A stretch of 64,000 bases of DNA, from the NCBI GenBank assembly GCA_022823605.1, contig JAJEHS010000001.1:124001-188000 (forward strand), read 5' to 3'. Below the pieces are notes generated by a model. It was given only the letters and a program-made list of their open reading frames with translations, was not told the origin of the DNA and did not search any database. The position numbers were made by a program, and so were the translations under genes. Position 1 is the first letter of the stretch, and every line of letters begins with the position of its first letter. Below are positions 39,096-59,423 of this stretch, one piece after another. The DNA is from Paracoccaceae bacterium (GTDB taxonomy: Bacteria > Pseudomonadota > Alphaproteobacteria > Rhodobacterales > Rhodobacteraceae).

Positions 39096-39112
39096 CGATT
39101 CGCTATGAGTGT

Positions 39113-39928: not shown

Positions 39929-39930
39929 TT

Positions 39931-40344
39931 TCAGAATTTCATGTAAGCCTTTCGCAACAATACCAGCGGGTGGCGATCCGACATCTGAAACTTGATCAGC
40001 AATTCTCGAGCAATCATATCCCGGTCCTGCTGGTTATCGGGCAATTCAATTGAATCCGGAACCCTGACCCAACCATTGATATTGCGGTCGAATACAGCCG
40101 GCTTGCCATCTTCATAACCCATGTGGACATCTTCAAGCCAATTGAGATCATCCCACCCCATGACTTCCATGTACTCTTTCAGGAACGGTGTCAATCGATC
40201 ATGATCGGGAACCAGATTAACATCATAACGGTAGCCGATATGCTGACCAATCTCAACCTCTCGCTCCGAACCCAATCCATCCTTGTCCTTGATGAACTGA
40301 TCGATGTCGGATATTTCCGAACCTCTATATTTTGTTCCAGCCAT
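39931..40344 (-). CDS. Unknown protein of the amine operon (137 aa)
   Basis: A 137-aa acidic soluble protein without cysteine, signal peptide or membrane segment. I do not recognise the family. Notable runs are EIGQHIGYRYDVNLVPDHD, EYMEVMGWDDLNWLEDVHMG and the C-terminal HPLVLLRKAYMKF. It sits between mgsC (eleven bases) and the nitrilase (two bases) and is surely translated with them. A small accessory or regulatory subunit of the MgsABC-like synthase is possible but unproven. Confidence 0.78.
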   Translation of the reverse strand: MAGTKYRGSEISDIDQFIKDKDGLGSEREVEIGQHIGYRYDVNLVPDHDRLTPFLKEYMEVMGWDDLNWLEDVHMGYEDGKPAVFDRNINGWVRVPDSIELPDNQQDRDMIARELLIKFQMSDRHPLVLLRKAYMKF

Positions 40345-40355
40345 CTGGTTACTCC

Positions 40356-41720: not shown

Positions 41721-41741
41721 TCCGGTTGTCTCCTCTTGAAT

Positions 41742-42611
41742 TTATAAAATCAATTTCTTCTCGGTCGGTTCAAGATTATCGTAGTTCCACAGCTGCTTGC
41801 CAGCCACGATCTTGGTGAAATGATCAATTCCCTGTTCCGGAACCATGCCGTATAGGTTGAGTTTTCGATGCAACCAACTCTTGTCCAGATCGGTCAATTC
41901 GGCCGTAACCGCATCAACGCCCAAACTCTGGATCTTGCCACCGATATAGATGGTGCCATCATACATGGAGTCACCCAGGTTTTTGCCGGCATTGCCGCAA
42001 ACGATCATGCGTCCCCTTTGCATCATGAAACCCGAAAGTGCCCCTGTATCACCACCGACAATGATGGTACCGCCCTTCATATCTATGCCTGTTCTAGACC
42101 CCACGGACCCCTTGCAGACAAGATCACCCCCCCTGATGGCTGCACCAAAGGTTGAACCGGCATTCTTCTCGACGACGATTGAACCCGACATCATGTTTTC
42201 ACCACAGGACCAGCCAACCCGACCATTGATCCTGACATTGGGGCCATCGTTCAAACCGACGGCGAAATAACCCAATGATCCTTCAAAAATCAGGTTCAGG
42301 CGGCTCAGAATGCCGACCCCAAGACCATGTTTGCCCCTTGGGTTCTTGATAACTATTGATCCATAGCCCTCATCCATCAGATTTCTGATTCGGGTGTTTA
42401 TTTCCGTGGTTGTTCCATCATCCGCATCAATTTCAGTACGCTTGTTGTAATCCACGTCCGGAGCCCAGGGATAAAGAAATCTTTGTTTTTCATCAGGATC
42501 AAACTCAATTGCCATTGACCTTCCGGTCAACTGCTCCGTTGTCATCCCGAGAGCCTTGACCCGTTCCTCCTGGGTCATTTCCCTCAATTCGGAATCACTT
42601 AGGTGTGCCAT
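41742..42611 (-). CDS. mgsB: N-methylglutamate synthase subunit B (GXGXG beta-helix)
   Basis: A 289-aa protein whose C-terminal half is a right-handed beta-helix with repeated glycine turns (GSIVVEKNAGSTFGAAIRGG, GGTIIVGGDTGALSG, GRMIVCGNAGKNLG), as in the GXGXG domain of glutamate synthase, GlxC and formylmethanofuran dehydrogenase C. It is a structural subunit bridging MgsA and MgsC. The ATG overlaps the mgsA end by 13 bases. A 21-base gap leads to mgsC. Confidence 0.9.
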   Translation of the reverse strand: MAHLSDSELREMTQEERVKALGMTTEQLTGRSMAIEFDPDEKQRFLYPWAPDVDYNKRTEIDADDGTTTEINTRIRNLMDEGYGSIVIKNPRGKHGLGVGILSRLNLIFEGSLGYFAVGLNDGPNVRINGRVGWSCGENMMSGSIVVEKNAGSTFGAAIRGGDLVCKGSVGSRTGIDMKGGTIIVGGDTGALSGFMMQRGRMIVCGNAGKNLGDSMYDGTIYIGGKIQSLGVDAVTAELTDLDKSWLHRKLNLYGMVPEQGIDHFTKIVAGKQLWNYDNLEPTEKKLIL

Positions 42612-43531
42612 ACACGTACCTCCTCGTCATAGGGATCATAGGTATCAATTTCCTGCGGAAGTATTGACCGAATTGCAACCTCTTCCGATGCCATGGCAAT
42701 CAGGTCGTCACTTTCATACAGGACCAGTGGTTTCGCTGCCATGGTATCCTTGGCCATTCCAAGTTCATCCCTGGTTGCGACCAAGTAGGTAAATACTCCA
42801 TCGATTTCATGGATTGACTTGGTCAGGCTTTCTTCAAGTGTTTCACCATTCGAAAGATTGTGCGCGGTATAAACGGCAAGAAGTTCGGAGTCACAATTCG
42901 ACATGAATCTGTGCCCCATTCTTTCCATTTCCCTCCGCATGATCCAGTAATTGGTAATTTGGCCATTGTGAACAACTGAAATATCGTTGTAAGGAAATGC
43001 CCAATACGGATGTGCCGACCTAATATCAACATCTGATTCGGTTGCCATCCTGGTGTGTCCTATGGCATGCGTGCCATTGAATGATTTCAAATCGTAATCC
43101 GAGGCCACTTCGGCGGCATCGCCCAAATCCTTCACCAATTCCAGTCTTCGACCGAGGGAAAGAATTTCCACCCCTTCAAGTTCCTCGATGGTTTCTGCCA
43201 TCTCGGTCGGTTTGTCCTTGATTGAAAGGACATATCGCAGGGCATAATCAGTAGCCTGATCCTTGGATTTGATGGTTGCATGCTCTTTGACTATATTTTC
43301 CACCTCTCCGATACGTTCGCGAATCAAGGACTTGATTTTGCTTCCCTTGTCCAAATCCTCTCGTTCGGCTACCTTTACCCGCATGATTAGGTCACCATCA
43401 CCAATGTCGCCATAGATGGCATAGCCTGTTGAATCAGGTCCCCTGTGCTTCAGAGCCTGAAGCATATCGGTCATTTCAGAACCAACACCAGAGGATTTTC
43501 CCCGATGAATTATCCCTGCAATTCCACACAT
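42599..43531 (-). CDS. mgsA: N-methylglutamate synthase subunit A (class II amidotransferase)
   Basis: A 310-aa class II (Ntn) glutamine amidotransferase. After Met removal Cys2 is the nucleophile (MCGIAGIIHRG); RHMA-equivalent IGHTRMATESD and VVHNGQITN, with SNCDSE, complete the glutaminase site. It releases the amine from gamma-glutamylmethylamide or glutamine and channels it to MgsC. It is homologous to rhizobial GlxB. It follows the glutamine-synthetase-like gene by 69 bases. Confidence 0.9.
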   Translation of the reverse strand: MCGIAGIIHRGKSSGVGSEMTDMLQALKHRGPDSTGYAIYGDIGDGDLIMRVKVAEREDLDKGSKIKSLIRERIGEVENIVKEHATIKSKDQATDYALRYVLSIKDKPTEMAETIEELEGVEILSLGRRLELVKDLGDAAEVASDYDLKSFNGTHAIGHTRMATESDVDIRSAHPYWAFPYNDISVVHNGQITNYWIMRREMERMGHRFMSNCDSELLAVYTAHNLSNGETLEESLTKSIHEIDGVFTYLVATRDELGMAKDTMAAKPLVLYESDDLIAMASEEVAIRSILPQEIDTYDPYDEEVRVWHT

Positions 43532-43600
43532 TTCAAAATACTCCCAAAATGCTTTAGTGATAGCCAGGGTGTACTATCACACCCTGACTCTTGATTTATA

Positions 43601-45079
43601 TTATGGTAAACAATCGATGTATTCTTCCTGATCCCAATCGGAGACCGAATGCATGAACCGTTCCCACTCATCGGTTTTGTATTCATGATACAAGCGGTAC
43701 ATTTCACCAGGCATGCCACCTTGAATGATTTCATCATTGGCCAAGGCTTCAAGGGCTTCACCAAGTGACATCGGCAGTTTACGGACATCCTTGCCGGCTT
43801 TGATTGCCTCGTAAATGTTTCTTTCCTCGGGTTCGCCCGGATCAAGGTTGTTTTCTATACCATCCTTGACGGCAGCCAGAATGACCGATCCCATAAGGTA
43901 TGGATTGACCATTGAATCGACCGATCTGTATTCAAACCTTCCGGGTGCGGATACCCGCAAACCGGTGGTTCTATTTTGAAAGCCCCAATCGGCAAAGACA
44001 GGTGCCCAGAAACCGGTATCCCAAAGTCTGCGGTATGAATTTACAGTAGATGAACCAACTGCTGTCAATGCCCTGAGGTGTTTGACAATTCCACCGATGG
44101 CCATCAATCCAACCTTGCCAGGCATTCTGGGATTATCCGAATCAGGCATGAAGGTGTTTTCACCACCAACCGTATACATGTAATTGTCTTTCATGCCTGG
44201 CAGGTTGTTCGGGTCATTGCCCACCCTGCTGAATGATTTTTCACCACCTTTCCAAAGCGAGAGATTGTGATGACAACCGGAAGCAGAAACACCCATAAAC
44301 GGTTTTGACATGAAACAGGCAATCAGATTGAACTCCCTGGCAACCTGGGCACAAATTTGCCGGTAGGTTGTAAGGCGGTCAGCATTCTTCAAAACGTCAT
44401 CAAACATCCAGTTGAGTTCCAACTGCCCGGGAGCATCTTCATGATCTCCTTGAATCATGTCCAGTCCCATCTTGCGGGCATATTCGATAACCTTCATGTA
44501 AACCGGACGTAGTGATTCAAATTGATCGATGTGATAACAGAACGGTTTGGAGAACCCGCCTGCAGGTTTTCCATCCTCACCCCTTTTAAGCCACATCATT
44601 TCGGGTTCGGTACCCATCCTCAACTGCAAGCCATGCTTGTTCTGGAACTCATCATGGAGGCGACGCAAATTCCCCCTGCAATCGGCAGTCAGAAATGCAC
44701 CGGGATCTTCCGGCTCTTCCCTGTTTCGGAAAAGGGTGCAATAAAATCTGGCAATCTTCGGTTCCCATGGCAATTGCATCATGGTTTCAGGTTCGGGTAT
44801 ACCTACCAGTTCGGCAGCCTCGGGTCCATAACCCAGATAATCGCCATGACGATTCGTAAACAGGTTCACGGTTGCACCATAAACTAGTTGAAATCCCTTT
44901 TTGGCAATGCTTTCCCAGTGGTCTGCAGGAATGCCCTTGCCCATAATTTTCCCGGTGACAGAGACAAATTGCAAATAAATGTACTCGACACCCAATTTAT
45001 CAATTTTTGCCCTTACCTCCTTGACCTGTTCATCCCGACCAGGGGCATTAACAAATTTTTCGATATCCGTTTCTGGCAT
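43601..45079 (-). CDS. Glutamine synthetase family protein (GlnT-like, not GmaS)
   Basis: A 492-aa glutamine-synthetase-fold ligase. The catalytic core is seen in GTEPEMMWLKRG, GDHEDAPGQLELNW, GCHHNLSLW, PGRFEYRSVDSMVNPYL. It has a longer N-terminus than the 425-aa GmaS encoded at 51876-53153, from which it differs throughout. Its company (FAD oxidoreductase, mgsABC) recalls the rhizobial glnT-glxBCD arrangement. It probably ligates glutamate to an amine; whether ammonia, methylamine or another N-methyl compound is not evident. A 21-base gap separates it from the upstream FAD gene. Confidence 0.85.
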   Translation of the reverse strand: MPETDIEKFVNAPGRDEQVKEVRAKIDKLGVEYIYLQFVSVTGKIMGKGIPADHWESIAKKGFQLVYGATVNLFTNRHGDYLGYGPEAAELVGIPEPETMMQLPWEPKIARFYCTLFRNREEPEDPGAFLTADCRGNLRRLHDEFQNKHGLQLRMGTEPEMMWLKRGEDGKPAGGFSKPFCYHIDQFESLRPVYMKVIEYARKMGLDMIQGDHEDAPGQLELNWMFDDVLKNADRLTTYRQICAQVAREFNLIACFMSKPFMGVSASGCHHNLSLWKGGEKSFSRVGNDPNNLPGMKDNYMYTVGGENTFMPDSDNPRMPGKVGLMAIGGIVKHLRALTAVGSSTVNSYRRLWDTGFWAPVFADWGFQNRTTGLRVSAPGRFEYRSVDSMVNPYLMGSVILAAVKDGIENNLDPGEPEERNIYEAIKAGKDVRKLPMSLGEALEALANDEIIQGGMPGEMYRLYHEYKTDEWERFMHSVSDWDQEEYIDCLP

Positions 45080-45100
45080 ACTACCTCCTATTTTACTTTT

Positions 45101-46444
45101 CTAACTCCACGGGTACGGACTGTTTGAAACGGGATGCAATTCCCCATTTTCAAAACGGGAAAACCTGAATGGCTCCAGCAATTCCTGATTCTCACCCATA
45201 ACTTCATCGGCCACAAGGTGACCAACACCTAGCATTTTCCAACCGTGATTGGAATCTGCAATTATAAACACATTTTCATTGAATTTATCAAATACCGGAA
45301 AACTGTCAGGTGTAAAACATCCTATTCCGCCAGATGGTTCTCTATGGTATTTGGGCATTGTTCCTTCAAATCGCTTGTGACAATGGGCCAATGCCGAAAC
45401 CCACATATGAGCAAATTCCTGACTGGAAACAAACTCTGGACTTGAAGGTCCGTAGGGGTCTATCGCCACTTCATCAACCGGTGTATTCACCTTGTAGGGA
45501 GAAGCGCCTCCCTGAACTCCACCAAAATGCCAATCCGGCTTATAGTAAATGCCCCACATTTCCTCTGTAATTACCGAACCATCAACATCCGAGTAGAGTG
45601 GTGCATCGGTGTCCACATGAATAACCGGTGGCATTTTACCATCATCAGTTAGGAGGGCTTCGGGTGGAACCGTAAGAACACCCTCTTCCAGCTGCCAATA
45701 TCTCCACATGTCAACATTCTTGTGAATTTCCCCATCCAGATCTTTCACTGTAATCTGCTTGGGTAGATCAAGCATGGACCAAAAATCCCTAACCCAGGGA
45801 CCAGCACCAATAATTATCTGCTCGCAGGTTATATCACCCTTGTCTGTAACTACAGTGGAAACTGCATTCGATGTCGAATCAGTTATAAACCCCTTGACTT
45901 CAATCCCTGAAATTATTCGTACCCCGAGTTTCTCCACTTTTGCCGACAATCCATACATTGCCTTAGTATTGTTGGAGTATCCACCTCTTTTTTCGTGCAG
46001 AACCGAGGTAATGTTTTTTGCCTGCCAATCCTCGAACATGCCCCTCATGTAATTCGTGGAAGCATTTTCACCTTCTATGAAAACACTTTCGTATCCTATT
46101 TCCTGTTGCTGTTCAAAGATTGTTCGCACATCTTCTCTCATAGCCTCACATGATATCTGCATATATCCAACCGGATGATAGCTCAGACCTTCGGGGTCGG
46201 ACTCCCAAACATCCACGGAATGTGCCATAAGCCTCCTCATGGCAGGTTGGAAATAGTTGTTTCTTACAACTCCACAGGCAATACCGGAGGCACCCGAGGC
46301 AATGCCGGATTTATCAAGAACAACTATTCTGCCTTCAACCTCTTCACCTTTGTCAATTAGTTTTTGTGCCAATCTCCAAGAGGTAGAGAGCCCATGAATA
46401 CCGGCACCAATAATTACAAATTCCACATGTTCAGGAATAGCCAT
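45101..46444 (-). CDS. FAD-dependent oxidoreductase, sarcosine-oxidase-beta-like
   Basis: A 447-aa flavoprotein of the DAO/sarcosine-oxidase superfamily. The dinucleotide-binding motif IIGAGIHGLSTSWRLA lies near residue 11, with GVVRNNYFQ, IIGAGPWVRDF and the C-terminal GWKMLGVGHLVADE. Such enzymes oxidise N-methyl or secondary amino groups. It lacks the GGTVRHDAVVWG covalent-flavin segment of MgdA/SoxB. It is the first gene of the nine-gene minus-strand operon, with GGAGGA before the ATG, and is divergent from a GntR regulator. Confidence 0.88.
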   Translation of the reverse strand: MAIPEHVEFVIIGAGIHGLSTSWRLAQKLIDKGEEVEGRIVVLDKSGIASGASGIACGVVRNNYFQPAMRRLMAHSVDVWESDPEGLSYHPVGYMQISCEAMREDVRTIFEQQQEIGYESVFIEGENASTNYMRGMFEDWQAKNITSVLHEKRGGYSNNTKAMYGLSAKVEKLGVRIISGIEVKGFITDSTSNAVSTVVTDKGDITCEQIIIGAGPWVRDFWSMLDLPKQITVKDLDGEIHKNVDMWRYWQLEEGVLTVPPEALLTDDGKMPPVIHVDTDAPLYSDVDGSVITEEMWGIYYKPDWHFGGVQGGASPYKVNTPVDEVAIDPYGPSSPEFVSSQEFAHMWVSALAHCHKRFEGTMPKYHREPSGGIGCFTPDSFPVFDKFNENVFIIADSNHGWKMLGVGHLVADEVMGENQELLEPFRFSRFENGELHPVSNSPYPWS

Positions 46445-47283: not shown

Positions 47284-47333
47284 ATTAACAAACAATTTCT
47301 CCTTGAGATAAGCATAAGTTAGTGAGATTTTCG

Positions 47334-48017
47334 ATGAACAAACTACCGTATCTGTTTCTTGGTTTTTTGGTAATGCTTGCGGGATTTCCGGGTATCATTC
47401 AAGCCAATCAAAGTTGTGCTGATTCGTTAACTGGGGATTTCTACAAAAAAGTCATCCCCATCAATCTTGACCGATGTCTAGATGAACAGCCCGCGCTCAT
47501 AAAACTAACCACTTCTGGTGGATTAACCGTCCTTCATCTGGCTGCAGGCAATACCCAAGATCCCGAAATTATCAATATTCTGATAAATGCCGGTGCCAAT
47601 ATTGAAACCAAGAGCAGTGAGGGATTTACACCCTTGCACATAGCTGCAGCACATAACACCAACCCCACAATCACCAAAGCATTTCTTGATGCTGGTGCCA
47701 ACATCGAAGCCAAGGCTGAATTGGGACTGACCCCTTTGCATTCAGCAGCTGCCTATAACACCAATAACGAGATAATCGAAGTACTACTTGATGCAGGAGC
47801 ACAAATCAATCCAAAAATTGTTTTGATTGGTTGGACACCTTTGCACGCAGCAGCTGCCTATAATGGTAATCCGAATATTATTGTAACCTTGCTTGATAAC
47901 GGGGCTGATCCAGGGGAACCGGACTCACAGGGGAAAATCCCCCTCGATCTTCTATCTGAGAATACTAATCTGGCTTATGACAAAAATATTTATGAAAGAC
48001 TTTCTGAAGGAAAGTAA
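47334..48017 (+). CDS. Exported ankyrin-repeat protein
   Basis: A 227-aa protein with a signal peptide (LFLGFLVMLAGFPG then an alanine cleavage region) and four ankyrin repeats from about residue 55 to 205: each has the TxLHxAA helix start (TVLHLAAG, TPLHIAAAH, TPLHSAAAY, TPLHAAAAY) and a LLDAGANIE-type turn. Two cysteines near the N-terminus of the mature chain could form a disulfide. The role is protein binding in the periplasm; the partner is unknown. I used the ATG at 47334; a GTG four codons earlier is in frame. It stands alone between the GntR gene and the restriction system. Confidence 0.85.
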   Translation: MNKLPYLFLGFLVMLAGFPGIIQANQSCADSLTGDFYKKVIPINLDRCLDEQPALIKLTTSGGLTVLHLAAGNTQDPEIINILINAGANIETKSSEGFTPLHIAAAHNTNPTITKAFLDAGANIEAKAELGLTPLHSAAAYNTNNEIIEVLLDAGAQINPKIVLIGWTPLHAAAAYNGNPNIIVTLLDNGADPGEPDSQGKIPLDLLSENTNLAYDKNIYERLSEGK

Positions 48018-48146
48018 AATCCTGATTTTTGTTCTGAAATGATCAGATGTTTTAAAATCAGAACTACAAGCAATGTAAATCCACATTGGTTTTCATGATC
48101 TACCGATATGTGTTCCTTAATTTCGTTCATAAAATGGTTGATTCCT

Positions 48147-49175
48147 ATGGATTTTACAAAAGATAAATACACTGAGGCAATTAGTAAAAGCGAGATAACG
48201 ATCTATGACACAACAAGATTAGATCTAAAGATACCCACCCCTAATCTGGAAATTATCCTAAATAAATATATGAAAGGTATTTCTGTAGAAGGCTATGCTC
48301 TAAGATCAAGATCAAAATTCATTAAGCAAAATGTATGTTCTGCCTTGGGTTACCCTGTACCCTTAAATTTTAAACGAACCAAACCTCGTTTTCCTGGTCA
48401 AAATTTTGATGTCTATAGTCAAAAATCAAATAATCTTCAGGTCTGGAATGAGGATATTGAGCTTGAGAGGCGTTATGTAATAATTCGAATTGGGGTAAAT
48501 AATAAAATAGAAAAAGTAAAAGTAGTATCGGGCAATAAACTTAAGGAACTGGATAATACCGGTACTTTGACCAAAAAATATCAGGCAAGAGTTCGTTCGG
48601 AGACTGAACAATCTGTGTTGGTTACCGAAAAGGATTCGGATTTGCTGAAAAGCATCACTAAAAACGGTATAAAAATCGATCCTGAGTGGAGTCCAGTGAA
48701 CTTTCCCGAATCCAACCAATTGATTTCGATTAATGATCTTTACAAGAAGCTTGAATCTCTTAATGGGAAATTAATTCCCAATAGTGGGAATGATCAAGAA
48801 CGGAGGAGAGGAGATGAACTTCACAAAAAAATTTGTGAGGTACTGGGTTATAAATATATAGATGATGGACAGTTTCCTGATATTATGCATCAATTATTGG
48901 AAGTAAAACTTCAGACATCACCCACGATTGACTTGGGTTTAATCAATCCAACTTGTAAGAAAATCATGGATATCCCCAAAATAGAGGGAAAAAGAGTTAG
49001 GTATTGTGATGTTCGATATGCAGTTTTCTTTGGTAAATCAGAAGATGATAATATTAAACTGACACACTTCTATTTAACAACAGGAGAGAAATTTTTTCAA
49101 TTCTCTGACCAGACCGGAGGAAAAGTCTCTAACAAAAAAATACAAATTCCTTTACCGGCTGGATTCTTCGACTAA
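48147..49175 (+). CDS. Putative type II restriction endonuclease (PD-(D/E)XK)
   Basis: A 342-aa protein next to a convergent DNA methyltransferase. Near residue 245 it has FPDIMHQLLEVK, fitting the PD-(D/E)XK catalytic core (Asp245, Glu252, Lys254), preceded by a helix with a conserved-looking glutamate (RRGDELHKKICE). I do not recognise the subfamily, and the target site cannot be predicted. The ATG at 48147 was chosen over one 39 bases upstream that would add a hydrophobic run. The gene is visibly richer in A and T than its neighbours, as expected of a mobile restriction cassette. Confidence 0.72.
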   Translation: MDFTKDKYTEAISKSEITIYDTTRLDLKIPTPNLEIILNKYMKGISVEGYALRSRSKFIKQNVCSALGYPVPLNFKRTKPRFPGQNFDVYSQKSNNLQVWNEDIELERRYVIIRIGVNNKIEKVKVVSGNKLKELDNTGTLTKKYQARVRSETEQSVLVTEKDSDLLKSITKNGIKIDPEWSPVNFPESNQLISINDLYKKLESLNGKLIPNSGNDQERRRGDELHKKICEVLGYKYIDDGQFPDIMHQLLEVKLQTSPTIDLGLINPTCKKIMDIPKIEGKRVRYCDVRYAVFFGKSEDDNIKLTHFYLTTGEKFFQFSDQTGGKVSNKKIQIPLPAGFFD

Positions 49176-49185
49176 TGCAGATAAT

Positions 49186-50898
49186 TCAAATTATACAATT
49201 TGAATTTCCCGTAAACCCCTTCCAAATCATACTATTTACCTCAAGTTTTAAACTATCAGCAATTTTAGATGGTGTAAGTTCAAATATTTGTTTTGATTTT
49301 TGTACAATAGATTGACCGAGGGAACTGTGAACATCGAGTAAAGGAAATTTTTCAACGTATTGAGTAATGAATCTTCTTCGACCTGCATATAGTTTATTAT
49401 TGAAACAAAGGTCATAATAATAAATTATGAATGAAGAATTGCCTATGGCTGCTGCTAACCAAAGTAGATCAATTTCTGATGGATCCTTAGGTACAATCCA
49501 ATAACAGTCACCATTAACCACAGAGCAACTAAAATCCATCCAAAATTTTGGTTGATCAGCAATGTCATTAAAAACAAGCTTTGGATATTTCCATGCATCA
49601 GGATCCTGAGGAACCCAAATTTCGTACCACTTCCGACCCGAATCAATTAGGTACTTTCTTTTTTCAAGTAACTTTCTGTTTGATAGTAAATAGGCGTGGG
49701 AACAGGGATATTTTGTTAAATCAACAGCCTTACGCTGGCCATCAACTACTTCATGTGGATAGAGTATTTGTCTTGGATTTTTTAATGTTAATGTTTTATA
49801 ACTTTGAGCAATATGATGGGTACTAAGAGGTTTTAGGAGTTCTGGCCGACAATTCAAATTCATTTCATTCCAATCATTACGAATAAATATTTTATCAGCG
49901 CATGTTTTAACTCCCACTCGTATTTTACCGATATCTCGAAAAGTTCCCTTGCTGTTATCTTCTACTTTCCTTAACCAAGAAATATTTTTTTTCGTCAAGA
50001 GACGCCAAACACCATATTGATGTCCTTCAGTGTCCAATTTTCCATGCTTGACCTGAAAATTTCGACCATCCCTAATTTTTACGATTCCATTTTCATTTAG
50101 GGCAGAAATAGCATCTGAAGTTATCTTTCTTGAGGGTTTTGAAGTCTCATAAATCGTTGTAAATAATGGTTGTATACTTTGTTTATCACCCTTTTTTCTA
50201 ACTACCAGTACTGCGGGTAAAATTGCAGCACTAAAAAGTTTTGTATCTCCCAAATCCCAAGTATGTAGCAAATCAAATTTATCTATTAGCTCATTTCTTA
50301 CCTTCGACCCGGATTTAGTAGTCATAAAACGATTAGATACAATTATACCAGCAATTCCATTGGGCCTGAGTACTTTAGAAATACCCACAACAAATGGATA
50401 ATATAAATCTATACGTCCTGATAAGTCGAATTGCTTCGAAATTAACTGCGACTTTTTAGTACCTAATATTTGGGTTCGAACATAGGGCGGATTGGCTATA
50501 ATGATGTCAAAACCATTCAAAATATTTACTTGGGGTAGATTACCAAATTTGAACTCCTTGAAAATGTACTCTAAGAAATCACCTTTTTTGAAAAACACAG
50601 AAATATTTGGGAATTGCTCAAGTCTTATCTTTGCATTGTGCAAAGCATTTGAATTAATCTCAAACCCATAAACTTCAATCTTAACATTTTTAGGAAGATC
50701 AAGATTGTTTAGAAGGCATACGAGGAGCTCGCCATCACCTAATGCGGGGTCCAAAATACGTATTGTTTTGCTGGTTTCAATTAAATTAACATATTTGATT
50801 ATTTGCTGTGAAACAAAATCGGCTAATTTTTTTGGCGTATAAACCGCACCTGATACTTTGTTATCTGAAACCAAATCATGATGATTTCTGACATGCAT
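49186..50898 (-). CDS. Type II N6-adenine DNA methyltransferase
   Basis: A 570-aa methyltransferase of the gamma (TaqI/Eco57I-like) class. Motif X is GAVYTPKKLADFVSQQ (about 17-33), motif I DPALGDGE (50-57), motif IV NPPY (136-139), with the order X-I-IV typical of N6-adenine enzymes. The 350-residue C-terminal part would be the target-recognition domain. It protects DNA from the nuclease encoded at 48147-49175, with which it converges (ten-base gap). The AT-rich base composition matches the nuclease and differs from the flanking amine genes. Confidence 0.88.
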   Translation of the reverse strand: MHVRNHHDLVSDNKVSGAVYTPKKLADFVSQQIIKYVNLIETSKTIRILDPALGDGELLVCLLNNLDLPKNVKIEVYGFEINSNALHNAKIRLEQFPNISVFFKKGDFLEYIFKEFKFGNLPQVNILNGFDIIIANPPYVRTQILGTKKSQLISKQFDLSGRIDLYYPFVVGISKVLRPNGIAGIIVSNRFMTTKSGSKVRNELIDKFDLLHTWDLGDTKLFSAAILPAVLVVRKKGDKQSIQPLFTTIYETSKPSRKITSDAISALNENGIVKIRDGRNFQVKHGKLDTEGHQYGVWRLLTKKNISWLRKVEDNSKGTFRDIGKIRVGVKTCADKIFIRNDWNEMNLNCRPELLKPLSTHHIAQSYKTLTLKNPRQILYPHEVVDGQRKAVDLTKYPCSHAYLLSNRKLLEKRKYLIDSGRKWYEIWVPQDPDAWKYPKLVFNDIADQPKFWMDFSCSVVNGDCYWIVPKDPSEIDLLWLAAAIGNSSFIIYYYDLCFNNKLYAGRRRFITQYVEKFPLLDVHSSLGQSIVQKSKQIFELTPSKIADSLKLEVNSMIWKGFTGNSNCII

Positions 50899-51094: not shown

Positions 51095-51811
51095 TTATTT
51101 GGATGCTGCATGTAACCAATTGATGTAGACTCGCTCAGCCATTGATTCAAAATTACTCATTACACGGTTGCAATCACTTCGCAAGCGGGAAACTCCTCCT
51201 TGACCAAATGTCTTGTCCAAGGCTGATTCGTAAGCAGGTATTTCAGCCCAGTTATCAACGGTATTAGGTTCAACTTCCAAATGAAACTGTACCGAGAATG
51301 CACGGGTGTACCAACTCATTGCCTGGATTTTACAGAGAGGTGAGTTTGCCAGACAAACCGCACCTTCGGGCATTTGCTGAACTTCGGCACCATGCCACTG
51401 CAAACAGTCGAAAGTGTCCGGTATACCATCAAAGAAAATACTTTCACTTCCCTCTTCAGTAAGATCTACTCCCATGACCCCGACTTCGGGGGATTCGGAC
51501 TTGCCGCATTTGCCGCCAAGTGCTTCGGCAAGTAATTGATGTCCAAGGCATAGCCCCAAGAAGGGCAATCCCCTTTCCTTGACCGCTTCTCTGATGAATT
51601 CCTTTTCAGGTTTAAGCCAAGGGTGAATATCCTCTTCCCAGACATCCATGGGTCCACCAAGGACCCAAAGAGCATCATAGCCATCCAGACCAGGCAATTG
51701 TTCACCTTCATCAAGTTCAATCGGATCCCAGGTATGTCCATCATCTCGTAGCATTTTCCTGAATGAACCAGGATGTTCGACCTTGGCATGTTGAAGTACC
51801 AGAATATGCAT
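51095..51811 (-). CDS. Class I glutamine amidotransferase (GMP-synthase-like)
   Basis: A 238-aa stand-alone class I amidotransferase. The nucleophile elbow is LGLCLGHQLLAEALGG, and the catalytic His-Glu pair is in FSVQFHLEVE. There is no synthase domain. It follows gmaS by 64 bases on the same strand, so it could hydrolyse gamma-glutamyl amides formed by GmaS or act in nitrogen release; this is inference from position. AGGGGGAAAA precedes the ATG. Confidence 0.88.
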   Translation of the reverse strand: MHILVLQHAKVEHPGSFRKMLRDDGHTWDPIELDEGEQLPGLDGYDALWVLGGPMDVWEEDIHPWLKPEKEFIREAVKERGLPFLGLCLGHQLLAEALGGKCGKSESPEVGVMGVDLTEEGSESIFFDGIPDTFDCLQWHGAEVQQMPEGAVCLANSPLCKIQAMSWYTRAFSVQFHLEVEPNTVDNWAEIPAYESALDKTFGQGGVSRLRSDCNRVMSNFESMAERVYINWLHAASK

Positions 51812-51875: not shown

Positions 51876-53153
51876 CTATACGTCCAAGGCGTTTGCTTTC
51901 TCCCATGCTGAAAAATACCTCATATATTCATCCCATTCCTCTCCCTTCAGTTTGGTATAGGCAGTGTGGAATTCTTTACCAAAATATTTTTCAACAAAAT
52001 CCGAGTTTTCGAATAACCGGAGGGAATCAAGCATGTTCAGGGGAAGTTTTGGGGCATTTTTCACCTTATAACCCTCGGCATACATATCCAAATCAATTCG
52101 TTCGCCTGGATCCACAGTGCGTTCAATTCCATCCAGGGCTGATGCAATCATGGCGGCTTGCAATAGGTATGGATTGGTTGCCCCGTCAGCCAACCGAACT
52201 TCAACCCGGTTATCACCGGGAATCCTGATCATGTGGGTACGATTATTTCCACCATAGGTTACCGTATTGGGGGACCACGTAGCTCCCGAGGTGGTTCTTG
52301 GTGCATTGATCCGCTTGTAGGAATTGACCACGGGATTGGTGATCAGAGCAAGACTCTTTGCATTTTCAAGCAAGCCGCCAATTACATTGTAGGCCAATTT
52401 TGAAAGACCCAACTCGCCATCACCCTTCATCAGGTTTTTGCCACTTTCTGCATCCCAGATAGACAGATGTACATGACAACCGTTGCCAGTAAGGTTGGCC
52501 ATTGGTTTGGGCATGAACGTTGCCTTGAAACCATGGATTTCAGCCAACGACTTGACCATGACCTTGAAAAATGTATGACGGTCTGCTGTGGTGAGGGGAT
52601 CAGTAAAACCCCAATTCATTTCAAATTGACCATTCGCATCCTCATGGTCATTTTGATATGGCTCCCATCCCATGGAAATCATCGCATCACTGATTTCGGA
52701 AATCACGTCATACCTTCGCATCAACGCTTGCTGGTCATAACATGGTTTGCTTCTTGTATCCGAATCATCAGAGAGCTCATCACCTGAAGAGGAAAGCAAA
52801 AAGAACTCTGGCTCAACCCCTGTCATCACCTTGTAACCCATGTCCTTGGCTCTCGATATGAGTCTTTTCAAAACCAATCTGGGCGCATGATCAACTTCTT
52901 GATCATCCATTTGAAGATCACTGGGAATCCACGCAACCTCCGGCTTCCATGGCAAGGGGTAAATATTGTCAGATGGCATGGCCAACATATCAGGATGGGC
53001 CGGTGTCATATCCAGATGCGCAGCAAAACCGGCAAACCCGGCACCCTCTTCCCGCATATCGTCAATTGCTGTTGCAGGTACGAGTTTCGAGCGGACAACC
53101 CCAAACAGGTCTGTAAAACTTACCAGATAATACCTGATTCCATCTTTAGTCAT
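51876..53153 (-). CDS. gmaS: Gamma-glutamylmethylamide synthetase
   Basis: ATP-dependent ligase of the glutamine synthetase family (type III branch) that joins methylamine to glutamate. The 425-aa product starts IRYYLVSFTDLFGVVRSKLVPA and has GAGFAGFAAHLDMTPAHPDM, GVEPEFFLL, NDHEDANGQFEMNWGF and GNGCHVHLSIWD, all strongly typical of GmaS. GGAGG precedes the ATG. The pairing with divergent glxA-mgdABCD next door supports the methylamine role. The other NMG genes (mgsABC) lie about 9 kb away. Confidence 0.9.
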   Translation of the reverse strand: MTKDGIRYYLVSFTDLFGVVRSKLVPATAIDDMREEGAGFAGFAAHLDMTPAHPDMLAMPSDNIYPLPWKPEVAWIPSDLQMDDQEVDHAPRLVLKRLISRAKDMGYKVMTGVEPEFFLLSSSGDELSDDSDTRSKPCYDQQALMRRYDVISEISDAMISMGWEPYQNDHEDANGQFEMNWGFTDPLTTADRHTFFKVMVKSLAEIHGFKATFMPKPMANLTGNGCHVHLSIWDAESGKNLMKGDGELGLSKLAYNVIGGLLENAKSLALITNPVVNSYKRINAPRTTSGATWSPNTVTYGGNNRTHMIRIPGDNRVEVRLADGATNPYLLQAAMIASALDGIERTVDPGERIDLDMYAEGYKVKNAPKLPLNMLDSLRLFENSDFVEKYFGKEFHTAYTKLKGEEWDEYMRYFSAWEKANALDV

Positions 53154-53321: not shown

Positions 53322-54275
53322 TCAGGATTTTTTTCCTTTTCTATAACTTGTCGGTGGTAATCCAAATTGTTCGCTGAATGCCCTTGAGAAGTGAACCGGA
53401 GAGGAAAAACCGGTTGCTTGCAATATTTCGTTGGTTGTCAGGGATGAACTTTCAATCAATTTTCTGGCAATCTCCAGTCTGGTATTTCGGCAAAATTTCA
53501 TGACCGATGTTCCTATTTCCCGCTGGAATAATCTGTTCAGATGGCGGGAACTCATCCCGACCAACCTGGCTAATTGCTCCAAAGTCAGCGGGTCAGCTAT
53601 GTGGTTTTCGATCAGTTCTATTGAACTGAGGACAGGCCTGACCTGTGTTCCAAACCGTTCTTCCAACCCCGATCTCTGTGCCTCACCCGGCTTGCGTACA
53701 TCAGTATGAATAAACCAATCGGAAACATCCCTGGCAAATTTTGTTCCAAACTCCCTTGCAATCAACAGATGCATTAGATCCAGCGGCGCGGTACCACCCG
53801 AACAGGTTATTCGATTACGGTCAATGACAAAGAGCGATCTCTCCAAGATCAAATTCGGATACATTTGTTCAAGCAATGAAGCGTGTTCCCAATGAACTGT
53901 CATGCGGTAATCCTTCATCAATCCGGCTTTGGTAAGAATTACCGGACCTCCGGAAATACCCCCCAACACGGTATCGGTTTGGGGTACTTCGGCAAGCCAC
54001 TCGAATAGTTCCGGATTGTCAACGTTGAAGGGATCACCACCTGCTACAAGAAACAAGAAATCCAGACTCGGTGCTTGATCATAACACCGGGTCTCTACCT
54101 CTGCCCCGGAGGAGCTCTTGATACGATTACCTTTTGCCGAAAAATGACTGATCTCAAATAGGTCTTCACCCGAAAGTAGGTTTCCAGCCCTCAATGGTTC
54201 AATTGCACTCGAATACGACAAAAGTGGAAAGCCATCTATCAACAGAAAGCCGATTTTGATTTTATTACCCAGCAA
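53322..54275 (-). CDS. GlxA-type AraC-family transcriptional regulator with DJ-1/PfpI domain
   Basis: A 317-aa regulator. The N-terminal 190 residues are a class I amidotransferase-like (DJ-1/PfpI) ligand domain (IGFLLIDGFPLLSY, FLVAGGDPF, LGGISGGPVILTKAGL); the C-terminal 100 are two AraC helix-turn-helix motifs (LARLVGMSSRHLNRLFQREIG, TNEILQATGFSSPVHFSRAFS). This is the family of GlxA, ArgR (Pseudomonas), GbdR and CdhR, which respond to amino acids and quaternary amines. Translation seems to begin at TTG 54275 with GGGA upstream; no ATG is available in frame. It is divergent from mgdA and likely activates it. Confidence 0.9.
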   Translation of the reverse strand: MLGNKIKIGFLLIDGFPLLSYSSAIEPLRAGNLLSGEDLFEISHFSAKGNRIKSSSGAEVETRCYDQAPSLDFLFLVAGGDPFNVDNPELFEWLAEVPQTDTVLGGISGGPVILTKAGLMKDYRMTVHWEHASLLEQMYPNLILERSLFVIDRNRITCSGGTAPLDLMHLLIAREFGTKFARDVSDWFIHTDVRKPGEAQRSGLEERFGTQVRPVLSSIELIENHIADPLTLEQLARLVGMSSRHLNRLFQREIGTSVMKFCRNTRLEIARKLIESSSLTTNEILQATGFSSPVHFSRAFSEQFGLPPTSYRKGKKS

Positions 54276-54281
54276 AAAACA

Positions 54282-54317
54282 TGTCCCATTTTGTTAAGTT
54301 TTTGTCCTGTTTTGCAA
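54282..54317 (+). promoter_or_regulatory. Tandem ArgR-like half-sites between glxA and mgdA
   Basis: TGTCCCATTTTGTTA (54282-54296) and TGTCCTGTTTTGCAA (54303-54317) are direct repeats exactly 21 bases (two helical turns) apart, 12 of 15 positions identical or purine/pyrimidine matched. The first also fits TGTCSC-N8-AA, the half-site of the related Pseudomonas ArgR. They lie 55-90 bases upstream of mgdA. Confidence 0.6.
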
Positions 54318-54371
54318 TATACATTTAATATGAATAGCAATATTATGCATCGATTGCGAGTTTGGTAATCA

Positions 54372-55619
54372 ATGAAGTATTCAGTCTGGAACATATTTAG
54401 ACAAGGTCTGAGAGGCAATAAGGATTGGCCTGTAATGTGGCGTGATCCGGAACCTCAGCAGCACTATGATGTCATAATAATTGGTGCTGGGCATGGAATG
54501 GCCGCGGCCTACTACCTGGCAAAGGTATATGGCATAAGAAAGGTCGCTGTATTGGAGAAAGGATGGCTTGGTTCAGGCAATACCGGACGCAACACAACCA
54601 TAATCAGATCAAACTACCTTCTGCCTGGCAACGAACCCTTTTATGAATTTTCAATGAAACTATGGGAGGGACTGGAACAGGATTTCAACTTCAACGCCAT
54701 GGTTTCACAACGAGGCATACTGAATCTGTTTCATTCCGACCCTCAACGGGATGCCTTTGCGAGAAGAGGCAACTCAATGCTTCTGGCAGGTGCTGATGCC
54801 GTTCTGCTAGATGAAAACCTCATCCGTAAAATGTGTCCTTTCCTGGATTACGAAAACGCTCGTTTCCCTGTCAAGGGAGCTCTTTGGCAACCACGTGGGG
54901 GTACGGTACGACACGATGCAGTGGTATGGGGTTATGCCAGGGGAGCAGATCGCTTGGGAGTCGATATCATCCAAAATTGTGAAGTAACCGGATTTGATAT
55001 CCAAGATGGTGTCTGTCGGGGGGTCGAAACAACTAAAGGACCGATAAAAGCCAATAATGTTGGTGTAAGCGTCGCTGGATCCTCCAGCAAGGTCATGGCG
55101 CAGGCGGGAATGCGTTTGCCCATGGAATCCCATGTATTGCAAGCCTTTGTTTCAGAAGGATTGAAACCTTGCCTTCCTGGCGTCATTACCTTTGGTGCAG
55201 GTCATTTCTATGTCAGCCAATCAGACAAGGGAGGGTTGGTTTTCGGTGGAGACCTTGATGGTTACAATTCTTACGCACAAAGGGGAAATCTACCAACCGT
55301 AGAGGATGTTTGTGAAGGAGGCATGGCGATCATGCCGATGATAGGAAAGGCCAGGTTGTTGAGGATGTGGGGAGGTCTAATGGATATGTCCATGGACGGT
55401 TCGCCCATAATTGACAAAACCCACATTTCCGGATTGTATTTCAATGGCGGCTGGTGCTATGGAGGATTCAAGGCTACCCCTGCTTCGGGATATTGCATGG
55501 CTCATTTGCTAGCCACGGATGAACCGCATCATACTGCAACCGCATTTCGCTTTGACCGCTTCAACAAGGGGCTGATGATTGATGAAAAGGGTGTTGGGGC
55601 CCAACCCAATCTTCATTAG
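54372..55619 (+). CDS. mgdA: N-methylglutamate dehydrogenase subunit A (SoxB-like)
   Basis: Flavoprotein subunit (415 aa) of the heterotetrameric N-methylglutamate dehydrogenase/sarcosine-oxidase family, which oxidises the N-methyl group and passes the C1 unit to folate. The FAD motif VIIIGAGHGMAAAYYLA begins near residue 34; His181 in GGTVRHDAVVWGYARGA corresponds to the histidine that binds FMN covalently in SoxB. Other landmarks are SGNTGRNTTIIRSNYL and FNGGWCYGGFKATPASG. It leads the operon mgdA-B-C-D. Proximity of gmaS and mgsABC, and the divergent SoxD-like subunit, favour Mgd over Sox. Confidence 0.9.
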   Translation: MKYSVWNIFRQGLRGNKDWPVMWRDPEPQQHYDVIIIGAGHGMAAAYYLAKVYGIRKVAVLEKGWLGSGNTGRNTTIIRSNYLLPGNEPFYEFSMKLWEGLEQDFNFNAMVSQRGILNLFHSDPQRDAFARRGNSMLLAGADAVLLDENLIRKMCPFLDYENARFPVKGALWQPRGGTVRHDAVVWGYARGADRLGVDIIQNCEVTGFDIQDGVCRGVETTKGPIKANNVGVSVAGSSSKVMAQAGMRLPMESHVLQAFVSEGLKPCLPGVITFGAGHFYVSQSDKGGLVFGGDLDGYNSYAQRGNLPTVEDVCEGGMAIMPMIGKARLLRMWGGLMDMSMDGSPIIDKTHISGLYFNGGWCYGGFKATPASGYCMAHLLATDEPHHTATAFRFDRFNKGLMIDEKGVGAQPNLH

Positions 55620-55631
55620 GATTATAGATTA

Positions 55632-55913
55632 ATGATTATTGACCATCCACTTCTGGGCCCGAGAGATGCCGCTGAATTCGTTTATCTGGGGGATGCAAGC
55701 CTGATCGATCGTCCCGACTTGAACAATCCGGAAGCCGGTAAGGAATTTTTTGAGTATCTCTACCTAAGGGACAACCCCGAAGGCATACACCGGGAACTCT
55801 GGTATCACGAGCAGGGTGACAGATCCTGGCTGGTAGTTACCAGAAACACACTTACCCATGAAATCTTGAATGTGGAGTTGGCCAGACAAGTAGCACTGGC
55901 AATGGGGCGTTGA
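55632..55913 (+). CDS. mgdB: N-methylglutamate dehydrogenase subunit B (SoxD-like)
   Basis: A 93-aa small subunit of the SoxD family. The start of the chain reads IDHPLLGPRDAAEFVYLGDA where sarcosine oxidase delta subunits have a CPxCG zinc motif, and WYHEQGDRSW where they have HxxxC; so the zinc-binding cysteines are missing and only the histidine remains. The C-terminal THEILNVELARQVA helix is conserved. It follows mgdA by 12 bases, and its stop overlaps the possible TTG start of mgdC (TTGA). Confidence 0.88.
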   Translation: MIIDHPLLGPRDAAEFVYLGDASLIDRPDLNNPEAGKEFFEYLYLRDNPEGIHRELWYHEQGDRSWLVVTRNTLTHEILNVELARQVALAMGR

Positions 55914-55918
55914 GAGTC

Positions 55919-58861
55919 ATGTTTTCCAGATTTCCAGAGGGCGGGTTGATTGACAGGGAGCATTCCTTTACCTTTTCCTTCAACAACAAAAAATGGACTG
56001 GGTACAAGGGGGACACCCTTGCTTCTGCTCTGCTGGCAAACAATCAACTGTTCATTGCACGGTCTTTTAAATACCATCGCCCAAGAGGTGTATTTTCAGC
56101 CGGTTCGGAAGAACCCAATGCACTGGTCCAACTCGGTCGTGCCAGTTTTTCGGAACCGAATACCAAGGCAACCAACATTGAATTGTATGACAATCTCAAT
56201 GCCAAAAGCCAGAACTACAAACTCTCCCTTCAGTTCGACCTTTTGGGAATCAATGACAAACTTTCACCTTTCCTGTCGGCGGGTTTCTATTACAAAACCT
56301 TCATGTGGCCCAAACTGTTCTGGGAAAAGCTATATGAACCAGTAATTCGAAGTTCGGCCGGATTGGGTAAACTGTCCGGGTATCCTGATCCAGACAATTA
56401 TGACAAGGGATTCCTTCATTGTGATATACTGGTTGTTGGAGGCGGTCCAAGCGGCTTGCTTTCCGCCCTTGTGGCCGGACGAGCAGGCGCGAGGGTCATT
56501 TTGGCTGACGAGGATTTTCGTTTGGGGGGCAGGTTGAATTCCGACAGGGAAGAAATCAACAACCAATCAGGTCAGGAATGGGTAGCCCAAACGATAGCAG
56601 AATTAAAATCCCTGGATAATGTAAGGTTGCTTCCCAGAACAGTGGTTTTCGGCAATTATGATCATGGTATTTTTGGAGCCCTGGAACAAAGACCTGATGC
56701 TTTGCCAGGCATCAATAAAAAACCCAAAACGGTTCTCTGGAGAATCTATTCCAAGCGGTCAATCATTTGTACCGGTGCTACCGAGCGGTCCATTGGTTTT
56801 GGCAATAATGACAGGCCGGGAATTCTGCTGGCAGGAGCAATGAGAACCTATCTCAATCGATTTGCCGTCAAGCCGGGAGATCGAGTTGCATTATTCACCA
56901 ATAATGATTCGGGGTTGAAAACGGCCAATGACCTTGCCGATAAGGAAATTGCCGTAACAGTCATTGATACACGACCGAATCAGGGTCAAAATACCGACAA
57001 AAAATATCATGACTACATTGCGGGGGGAAGAATTGCCGATGTCAGGGGTCAAAAAGCAATAAACTCCATAATCCTGGCTGATGGAAAAAGCATCACGGTC
57101 GATTCACTGGCTGTTTCCGGTGGCTGGAATCCCAATGTTCACCTGACTTGTCATAAACGTACAAAACCTGTGTGGAACGAAAAAATCCAGGCGTTCGTAC
57201 CAGGTGAGAATTTAACCGATGGCATGAGAGTTGCGGGCTCGGCCAACGGCCTGTTTGATCTGTCCTCAACCCTTCTTTCCGGTGTTGTTACAGCCAATCT
57301 GGCACTTGAGGATCTTGGCTTCCCAACGTGTCAGCATCCCGACTTTGAGACATCGGTTGAAACTACTGATATAACACCCTTCTGGTATGTGAAGGAAGTC
57401 CGATCAAGATCATGGATTGATTTACAGAATGATGTAACCACCAAGGATATTTCCCAGGCCCATGATGAGGGGTTTCGGGATGTTGAACACCTCAAAAGGT
57501 ATACCACCCTGGGGATGGCGACCGATCAAGGCAGGACTTCGAATGTATCAGCTCTCGCCATCATGTCTGAACGTACAGGTAAATCCATATCCGAAACCAG
57601 CACCACAATTTTTCGACCTCCTTATACCCCTATTCCCATAGGAGCACTTGCAGGTCGTTCCCGAGGCAAGCATTTCCGCCCGACCAGATTTACTCCAAGT
57701 CACCGATGGGCTGAAAAGCAGGGAGCTGTTTTTGTTGAAACCGGCAATTGGCTCAGGGCACAATGGTATCCCCTTGAGGGTGAAACACATTGGCGCCAAA
57801 GCGTTGATCGTGAGGTGTTGGCCACACGTAACTCGGTAGGAGTTTGTGATGTTTCCACTCTCGGTAAAATAGATTGTCAGGGTACTGATGCGGCCGAATT
57901 CCTGAACAGGGTCTATGCCAATCCCTTCCTGAAACTCCCGGTTGGCAAGGTTCGGTACGGGCTTATGATGCGGGAAGACGGGATTGTTTATGATGATGGT
58001 ACAGTAGCCAGATTGGATGAGAATCATTATGTCATTACCACAACCACGGCCAATGCCGTTTTGGTATTTCGACAACTGGAGTTTGCCCGGCAATGCCTAT
58101 GGCCACAATTGGATGTGCATCTGATTTCCACTACCGATGGCTGGGCACAGTTTTCAGTTGCAGGTCCGAATTCAAGAAACCTTCTTGCCAAGATAACCGA
58201 TGATTTCGATCTTTCAAATGAGGTATTTCCCTTTATGGCATGTGCCAATCTCACGGTTTGTGGAGGTCGGAAGGCACGTTTGTTCAGAATTTCCTTTTCG
58301 GGTGAACTCGCCTATGAAATTGCAGTACCGTCCCGCTATGGCAATTCCATGATGGAGACCTTGATGGAGGCAGGCCAAGAATTCAATGTCGTACCTTATG
58401 GTACAGAAGCACTTGGTGTCATGCGAATTGAAAAGGGTCATTTTGCCGGAAATGAACTTACAGGCCAGACGACTGCATTTAACCTCGGTTTGGAGCGTAT
58501 GGTTTCAAAGAAAAAGGATTCCATTGGCAACAAATTGTCTGAACGGTCCGGACTGAACCAGCCAGATGGTATCCGGTTGGTTGGATTTGTTCCCGTGGAC
58601 AAAAACATGCAGTTCAATGCCGGAGCTCATTTTGTATCCAAGGGAAAGGAAAAAATTCTTGAAAATGATGAGGGATGGATGACCTCGGTTGCCTATTCTC
58701 CTACACTGGGACACACCATTGGATTGGGATTCATCAAGAATGGTTTGAACCGGTTTGGCGAAATTGTTCATGCCGTTGACCCTCTCCGAGGCAACAACAC
58801 CGATGTGGAAATCTGCTCACCCCATTTTTATGATCCTGACGGGGGTAGACAGCGTGGCTGA
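55919..58861 (+). CDS. mgdC: N-methylglutamate dehydrogenase subunit C (SoxA-like)
   Basis: A 980-aa large subunit. Residues of about 1-95 are a ferredoxin-like Fer2_4 module (FSFNNKKWTGYKGDTLASAL), about 165-430 a pyridine-nucleotide/FAD domain with VVGGGPSGLLSALVAGRAGA, and about 590-980 a GcvT folate domain (LRAQWYPLEGE, FAGPNSRNLL-like VAGPNSRNLL, GTEALGVMRIEKGHFAGNE). It takes the formaldehyde-level carbon to tetrahydrofolate. The ATG at 55919 follows GAGAG closely; a TTG at 55910 overlapping the mgdB stop is an alternative. It overlaps mgdD by eight bases. Confidence 0.92.
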   Translation: MFSRFPEGGLIDREHSFTFSFNNKKWTGYKGDTLASALLANNQLFIARSFKYHRPRGVFSAGSEEPNALVQLGRASFSEPNTKATNIELYDNLNAKSQNYKLSLQFDLLGINDKLSPFLSAGFYYKTFMWPKLFWEKLYEPVIRSSAGLGKLSGYPDPDNYDKGFLHCDILVVGGGPSGLLSALVAGRAGARVILADEDFRLGGRLNSDREEINNQSGQEWVAQTIAELKSLDNVRLLPRTVVFGNYDHGIFGALEQRPDALPGINKKPKTVLWRIYSKRSIICTGATERSIGFGNNDRPGILLAGAMRTYLNRFAVKPGDRVALFTNNDSGLKTANDLADKEIAVTVIDTRPNQGQNTDKKYHDYIAGGRIADVRGQKAINSIILADGKSITVDSLAVSGGWNPNVHLTCHKRTKPVWNEKIQAFVPGENLTDGMRVAGSANGLFDLSSTLLSGVVTANLALEDLGFPTCQHPDFETSVETTDITPFWYVKEVRSRSWIDLQNDVTTKDISQAHDEGFRDVEHLKRYTTLGMATDQGRTSNVSALAIMSERTGKSISETSTTIFRPPYTPIPIGALAGRSRGKHFRPTRFTPSHRWAEKQGAVFVETGNWLRAQWYPLEGETHWRQSVDREVLATRNSVGVCDVSTLGKIDCQGTDAAEFLNRVYANPFLKLPVGKVRYGLMMREDGIVYDDGTVARLDENHYVITTTTANAVLVFRQLEFARQCLWPQLDVHLISTTDGWAQFSVAGPNSRNLLAKITDDFDLSNEVFPFMACANLTVCGGRKARLFRISFSGELAYEIAVPSRYGNSMMETLMEAGQEFNVVPYGTEALGVMRIEKGHFAGNELTGQTTAFNLGLERMVSKKKDSIGNKLSERSGLNQPDGIRLVGFVPVDKNMQFNAGAHFVSKGKEKILENDEGWMTSVAYSPTLGHTIGLGFIKNGLNRFGEIVHAVDPLRGNNTDVEICSPHFYDPDGGRQRG

Positions 58862-59423
58862 TTATAAACTGGAACCATTCCCATTTCTCTGGGGTAGAGA
58901 ACGCTATTTTGGTAACAATTATCTGGATATTGTTTCTACCCAGGCCATCGTTTCAATTGCAATTCCAAGAGGAAGCGAGAAAGATTTTTCCAGTGAATTT
59001 ACCAATGCCTTTGGCACATATCTACCTGAACCCGGACATTCTGTTTTTTCCAAAAACCGGGAGTTTTTGTTTCTGTGGATGAGTCCTGACCAGATTTTTG
59101 CCCTCTTCGAGCGGGATGGGCTTTATCCGGAATTAACAGTTCGGGAAAAATTGGGCGATACAGGCTATATTACCGATCAAACCGATAATTGGTGCCAGAT
59201 CAGACTGACCGGACAGGACATTGTTCAGGCCATGGAAAGAATTTGCCCCCTGGATTTGAATCAATTCCCCTTGGGAAAATGTGCCAGAACCGTGATGGAA
59301 CACCTCAGCTCGGTTCTGGTTCGAGAATCCGATGAAGGTTTTCTGTTGCTGTCTCCCAGTTCCTCAGCTCAATCGTTTCTCGAAGCGATTGAACAATCTT
59401 TTCTTAATACAGGGGATTATTAG
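58854..59423 (+). CDS. mgdD: N-methylglutamate dehydrogenase subunit D (SoxG-like)
   Basis: A 189-aa SoxG-family subunit. The GTG at 58854, with GGGGG eight bases upstream and an eight-base overlap with mgdC, gives the expected short N-terminus; an in-frame ATG at 58755 would lie well inside mgdC. Family patterns include LWMSPDQIFALF, VTDQTD-like YITDQTDNWCQIRLTG and CPLDLNQFPLGKCARTVMEH. It ends the mgd operon; 230 bases without a supported gene follow before the convergent higA-like gene. Confidence 0.88.
   Translation: MADYKLEPFPFLWGRERYFGNNYLDIVSTQAIVSIAIPRGSEKDFSSEFTNAFGTYLPEPGHSVFSKNREFLFLWMSPDQIFALFERDGLYPELTVREKLGDTGYITDQTDNWCQIRLTGQDIVQAMERICPLDLNQFPLGKCARTVMEHLSSVLVRESDEGFLLLSPSSSAQSFLEAIEQSFLNTGDY

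Follow-up and report, generated by a model that had tools for sequence, protein, structure and literature searches.

A tandem direct repeat as the predicted operator between a TmaR-like regulator gene and the mgdABCD operon

A pair of direct repeats with a 21-bp period lies in the spacer between a TmaR-like regulator gene and the divergently transcribed mgdABCD operon. Because the pair recurs at the same spot in about a hundred relatives, it is very probably the DNA site that the regulator grips, switching the mgd genes on and holding itself in check. The fuller prediction, held with high confidence, is that the tandem repeats form the operator of this adjacent regulator and serve both class II activation of mgdA and autorepression. 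Autoregulation is probably part of the mechanism, a point missed in a preliminary description of the window (the whole 64-kb stretch of DNA that was analysed). The case also illustrates how comparison of homologous spacers can decide on a pattern that a single sequence leaves unconvincing.

The spacer and its gene neighbourhood

The spacer spans 96 bp (54276-54371), between the minus-strand regulator gene, which starts at 54275, and mgdA/soxB, which starts at 54372. The features of the locus, in window coordinates, are as follows.

51876..53153, minus strand: probable gmaS, gamma-glutamylmethylamide synthetase, downstream of the regulator gene on the same strand, with a match to 7cql
53322..54275, minus strand: TmaR-like GlxA-family regulator, with an N-terminal DJ-1/PfpI domain and a C-terminal AraC helix-turn-helix; TTG start here
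54282..54297, plus strand: half-site 1, TGTCCCATTTTGTTAA, distal to mgdA and 6 bp from the regulator start codon
54303..54318, plus strand: half-site 2, TGTCCTGTTTTGCAAT, proximal to mgdA and 21 bp after half-site 1
54318..54346, plus strand: candidate mgdA promoter, TATACA, 17 bp, TATTAT, with the inferred -10 at 54341-54346
54372..55619, plus strand: mgdA (soxB-like), N-methylglutamate dehydrogenase subunit (TIGR01373, 650 bits), its pathway assigned from linkage
55632..55913, plus strand: mgdB (soxD-like)
55910..58861, plus strand: mgdC (soxA-like; TIGR01372, 1281 bits)
58755..59423, plus strand: mgdD (soxG-like; TIGR01375 below cut-off, whole-protein E 3.5e-12)

The true start of mgdD probably lies downstream of 58755.

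The regulator had been placed in the AraC/DJ-1 family, an assignment borne out by its DJ-1/PfpI and AraC helix-turn-helix domains (PF01965, PF12833 and PF00165, all above cut-off). Its best NCBIfam match is GbdR, at 256 bits, below the cut-off of 480 bits. TmaR (SPO1584), an AraC-type protein encoded beside mgdABCD in Ruegeria pomeroyi DSS-3, is required for growth on methylamines (PMC13390433). The present protein looks like a homologue of TmaR, with which it was compared at the levels of domains, taxonomic distribution and synteny, and agrees in all three. It adjoins mgdABCD in a methylamine gene context, as expected for the TmaR regulon. In the genus of the window, the regulator lacks the start ATG that most relatives have within half-site 1 and begins with TTG or another non-ATG codon (54270-54289, minus strand; CTG or ATT in L003). 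An out-of-frame ATG in the three closest species opens a five-codon frame that overlaps the regulator start.

Gene linkage supports the identification of mgdABCD as an N-methylglutamate dehydrogenase operon rather than a sarcosine oxidase. The type III glutamine-synthetase-like gene at 51876..53153 has 7cql as its best PDB match (555 bits), and 7CQL is the gamma-glutamylmethylamide synthetase (GmaS) of Rhodovulum (PMC7948447); with this protein as its best solved relative, the gene is most likely gmaS. A gmaS-mgsABC cluster is adjacent to or in line with the locus in L065, L066, L111, L135, L157, L159, L165, L186 and L187, and lies beside the regulator locus on annotated plasmids of Paracoccus aminophilus and Rhizobium etli. 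In Paracoccus aminovorans, the order is dmm, regulator, mgd. These links to gmaS, mgsABC and dmm support the name N-methylglutamate dehydrogenase, already used in the preliminary description. The genome to which the window belongs holds three further soxB-like genes elsewhere, at 41-47%.

A cluster at 38511-46444 and 51095-51811 includes a second MgsABC-like set, about 30-47% identical to the canonical set. Its other members are a paralogue of type III glutamine synthetase, an FAD oxidoreductase, a class I amidotransferase, a carbon-nitrogen hydrolase, a GntR-type regulator and two unknown proteins. Many relatives keep this cluster beside the mgd regulator, and it may supply N-methylglutamate from another substrate; a part for Mgd in homarine breakdown is the subject of a report mentioned in PMC13390433. 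Between the GntR gene and the amidotransferase gene, with nothing separating the two in L072 and other relatives, stands a type II restriction enzyme with its methyltransferase (48108-50898; PADLOC REase_II 398 bits, MTase_II 620 bits), an apparent insertion into the metabolic cluster. An ankyrin-repeat protein with a signal-peptide-like N-terminus is encoded beside the restriction system (47322-48017).

Conservation and specificity of the repeat pair

The preliminary description reported two direct repeats 21 bases apart in this spacer, and both were confirmed, with starts at 54282 and 54303. TGTCCCATTTTGTTAA and TGTCCTGTTTTGCAAT lie on the same strand and agree at 11 of 15 positions. Judged from the window sequence alone, the pair is scarcely above chance: self-identity of at least 11/15 at lag 21 occurs at 39 window positions, where lags 10-60 average 17 each. 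TGTC repeated at a distance of 21 is found at only two places in the 64 kb. The site is accepted as real because of comparative evidence from relatives, namely its matrix rank, its uniqueness in the genome and the excess of repeats at a single lag.

The regulator was searched for in 101 near genomes, 395 genomes of the family and a collection of 84,980 species, the last yielding 80 named loci. A soxBDAG/mgdABCD-like operon is its divergent neighbour in all 80 named loci, as it is for nearly every other homologue retrieved, and the taxa with the locus include Rhodobacteraceae, Roseovarius, Kiloniella, Aurantimonas, Methyloligella, Afifella and Granulosicoccus. Removal of near-duplicates reduced 126 spacers to 104, in which, with no motif supplied, repeats were most in excess at a lag of 21 bp (z 8-11). 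A 5-mer is shared at this lag in 40 spacers against 10.9 expected (z 8.3), and a 6-mer in 21 against 3.1 expected (z 10.7); these z-scores overstate independence, because the spacers are related by descent, whereas the preference for a single lag is not inflated.

De novo motif search returned TGTCCATtTTnngaAAnTAta|cGTCtnTTTTaGGAAAGTC; the expectation maximisation, at width 40, gave TGTCCATtTTnngaAAnTAtac GTCtnTTTTaGGAAAGTC, with a second TGTC-like box from column 22. A paired site of at least 17 bits is present in 95 of the 104 non-redundant spacers. Across these 95, information content is high at columns 1-42 and low thereafter, rising only at A60 and T64, which are spaced like A2 and T6 in a -10 hexamer and which we infer to be a -10 signature. 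With a matrix trained on 98 spacers, from which the genus of the window and its near kin had been excluded, position 54282 ranks first among approximately 128,000 positions on both strands, at 21.8 bits against 9.5 for the next. Within the genus, the core TGTCC/AA/TGTCC is identical at 11-12 of 12 positions in four relatives. The window site is nevertheless a mediocre member of its family, with a T-run off by one base and a half-site 2 that ends in AT. The idea that both half-sites had gained one base in this genus was dropped, because the 21-bp period and the AA positions are unchanged and only the T-run moves.

An independent test used ten annotated-plasmid loci outside the training set, whose regulators are 39-48% identical. 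The best position of the whole locus falls in the homologous spacer in all ten, in the same orientation and 87-117 bp before the ATG; the matches are weak in four of the ten (4.9 to 6.8 bits), yet rank first. No site is present at twenty loci where a paralogous GlxA regulator has no sox operon next to it (maximum 2.7 bits), and the matrix likewise gives a maximum of 2.7 bits at the three other soxB copies of the genome. In 1.74 Mb of loci, there are 95 matches of at least 18 bits, against none in reversed controls, and only two of the 95 lie away from the regulator. These two extra matches, in the sister loci L117 and L141 (position 4730, minus strand; 23.4 and 20.5 bits), are 763 bp from a soxG-like gene. 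Within its own 2.6-Mb genome, the window site is the only match within three mismatches of a degenerate pattern. No second strong paired site was found near gmaS-mgs in six loci.

The existence of the pair, its 21-bp period, conservation, orientation and position, and its specificity to the regulator-operon pair are established by computation. The preliminary description had named a search for the same pair upstream of mgdA in relatives as a test; the pair recurs in about a hundred of them, so the refuting outcome, a lack of conservation in related spacers, did not occur. The reading as an operator is also strongly supported, in the form of a putative AraC/DJ-1 tandem site conserved upstream of mgdA wherever the regulator is present.

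Predicted mechanism and alternative explanations

The two AraC-type DNA-binding domains of a regulator dimer would each occupy a half-site, 21 bp or two helical turns apart, on one face of the DNA. If TATTAT is the -10, half-site 1 would span about -71 to -56 and half-site 2 about -50 to -35. Two direct half-sites 21 bp apart, the proximal one at -35, are also the layout of araBAD I1-I2, and on this layout class II activation is predicted: half-site 2 would abut the mgdA -35 region, and the ligand-loaded dimer would recruit RNA polymerase as at araBAD. The candidate promoter matches the consensus at 9 of 12 positions, in a scan of the window whose counts are near chance level, shuffles being expected to give similar counts; its -10 (54341-54346) lies within one base of the conserved family -10. 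Half-site 1 lies on the start region of the regulator gene, so that the same binding event is predicted to limit expression of the regulator. The inducer would probably be N-methylglutamate, gamma-glutamylmethylamide or another methylamine catabolite.

The position of the regulator start codon raises a different explanation. The conserved block could mainly serve the regulator gene as its promoter and start region, with the ATG within TGTCCAT and TNGACT as a minus-strand -35, the repeat being a by-product. In most relatives, the regulator start codon does lie inside half-site 1, where TGTCCAT reads ATGGACA on the opposite strand: in 65 of 95 relatives, the CAT of columns 5-7 is the in-frame ATG of the regulator, the same codon phase is kept in 85 of 95 sites, and the reverse complement of columns 37-42, TNGACT, is close to TTGACA. 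Several features nonetheless make it very unlikely that the repeat is a by-product of this kind. Half-site 2, which is non-coding, is conserved as much as half-site 1; column 2 is never A, though Asp as codon 2 would permit it; and constraint on a start codon or promoter predicts no internal 21-bp repeat. Moreover, the window and most of the distant plasmid homologues hold the pair without the ATG or the codon phase, so the repeat is not accounted for by the start codon. A regulator promoter on the minus strand, its -35 being TNGACT (columns 42-37) and its -10 at columns 19-14 or 21-16, is a lead only, since neither the spacing (17 or 15) nor the fit of the -10 is perfect. No Shine-Dalgarno-like word precedes 61 of the 65 in-frame ATGs, and it is conceivable, though rather doubtful, that the regulator mRNA is leaderless and that one 42-bp element combines its 5' end and promoter with the mgd operator. 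If so, the bound dimer would cover the first codons of its own gene.

An operator for a different protein, such as a further regulator of the GlxA/GbdR type or the one of GntR/FadR type in the adjacent cluster, is highly improbable. The related AraC/DJ-1 regulators GbdR and CdhR do bind overlapping sites (PMC5806209), and a GntR-type gene often neighbours the locus. The site, though, tracks the regulator family, including loci that lack a GntR neighbour, and it is absent at the 20 paralogous GlxA regulator loci. Direct repeats with a 21-bp period have the AraC/DJ-1 layout, whereas the usual sites of GntR proteins are short palindromes. That the resemblance arose by chance in an AT-rich spacer can scarcely be credited: the near-chance frequency of the half-site pattern and the unremarkable self-identity in the window would allow it, but conservation across about 100 diverged spacers, together with the specificity of the site, refutes it.

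Relation to known operators and regulators

The preliminary description likened the site to that of Pseudomonas ArgR, and this likeness holds for the layout (a TGTC box, AA and a 21-bp period) but not for the specificity. The ArgR box consists of TGTCGCN6GNAA in tandem, with 5 bp between copies and a weaker second copy (PMC10963909). Shared with the present site are the TGTC box, AA at positions 15-16, the 5 bp between copies and the less conserved second copy; by contrast, positions 5-6 are CA here and GC in the ArgR box, the regulator belongs to another clade, and arginine is not implicated. The fit of the first copy to TGTCSC-N8-AA is present but incidental, for the sixth base varies in genus and family: it is C in the window and T, G, T and T in the four relatives nearest to it, and across the family it is A in 70% of sites and C in about 3%. 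The family consensus box is TGTCCA, and the window boxes are TGTCCC and TGTCCT. Half-site 2 (TGTCCT...AT) does not match TGTCSC-N8-AA, single copies of which number 8 in the window against 5.1 expected, approximately chance level, and neither half-site contains TGTCGC-N6-G-N-AA. An ArgR identity was rejected on the variable sixth base and the closer likeness of the regulator to GbdR; the linked genes are methylamine genes. The best model is a TmaR-type site that would work like an ArgR, GbdR or CdhR operator without being an ArgR box.

GbdR, SouR and CdhR of Pseudomonas aeruginosa share with the present system direct repeats, a GTC core and regulators of the same DJ-1 plus AraC architecture. 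CdhR half-sites (GGTCGC, with a 15-bp spacer and hence a 21-bp period) have been likened to those of GbdR, SouR and ArgR (PMC5806209). The CdhR site also resembles the present one in its period and divergent catabolic operon; CdhR is described as class I, whereas class II is expected here, where half-site 2 abuts the -35. AraC at araBAD I1-I2 differs in its unrelated ligand domain and sequence, and no distal looping site of the AraC kind was found.

The closest parallel is with TmaR, likewise an AraC-type regulator next to mgdABCD, which ranges over Rhodobacterales, Hyphomicrobiales and some Gammaproteobacteria and shares the dmm, regulator, mgd neighbourhood that the present family has in Paracoccus aminovorans. 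TmaR activates mgdA and responds to a methylamine catabolite (PMC13390433, 2026), and the activation of N-methylglutamate dehydrogenase genes proposed in the preliminary description fits these published genetics of R. pomeroyi. The TmaR DNA-binding domain binds the mgd promoter weakly (Kd 2.64 uM) and the tmaR promoter better (0.13 uM), and TmaR is reported also on the gmaS-mgs, dmm and tdm promoters (PMC13390433); against this stands the lack of a second strong paired site near gmaS-mgs in the six loci of the present family. The 2026 paper presents TmaR as the master regulator by which abundant marine bacteria control methylamine use, but describes it without a ligand, and its main text gives neither a footprint nor a binding motif (PMC13390433). 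A predicted motif is now provided by the present site. The 42-bp conserved predicted operator thus offers a target for footprinting, reporter assays and ligand screening and a matrix for regulon prediction, and a single site provides a testable account of activation plus autoregulation.
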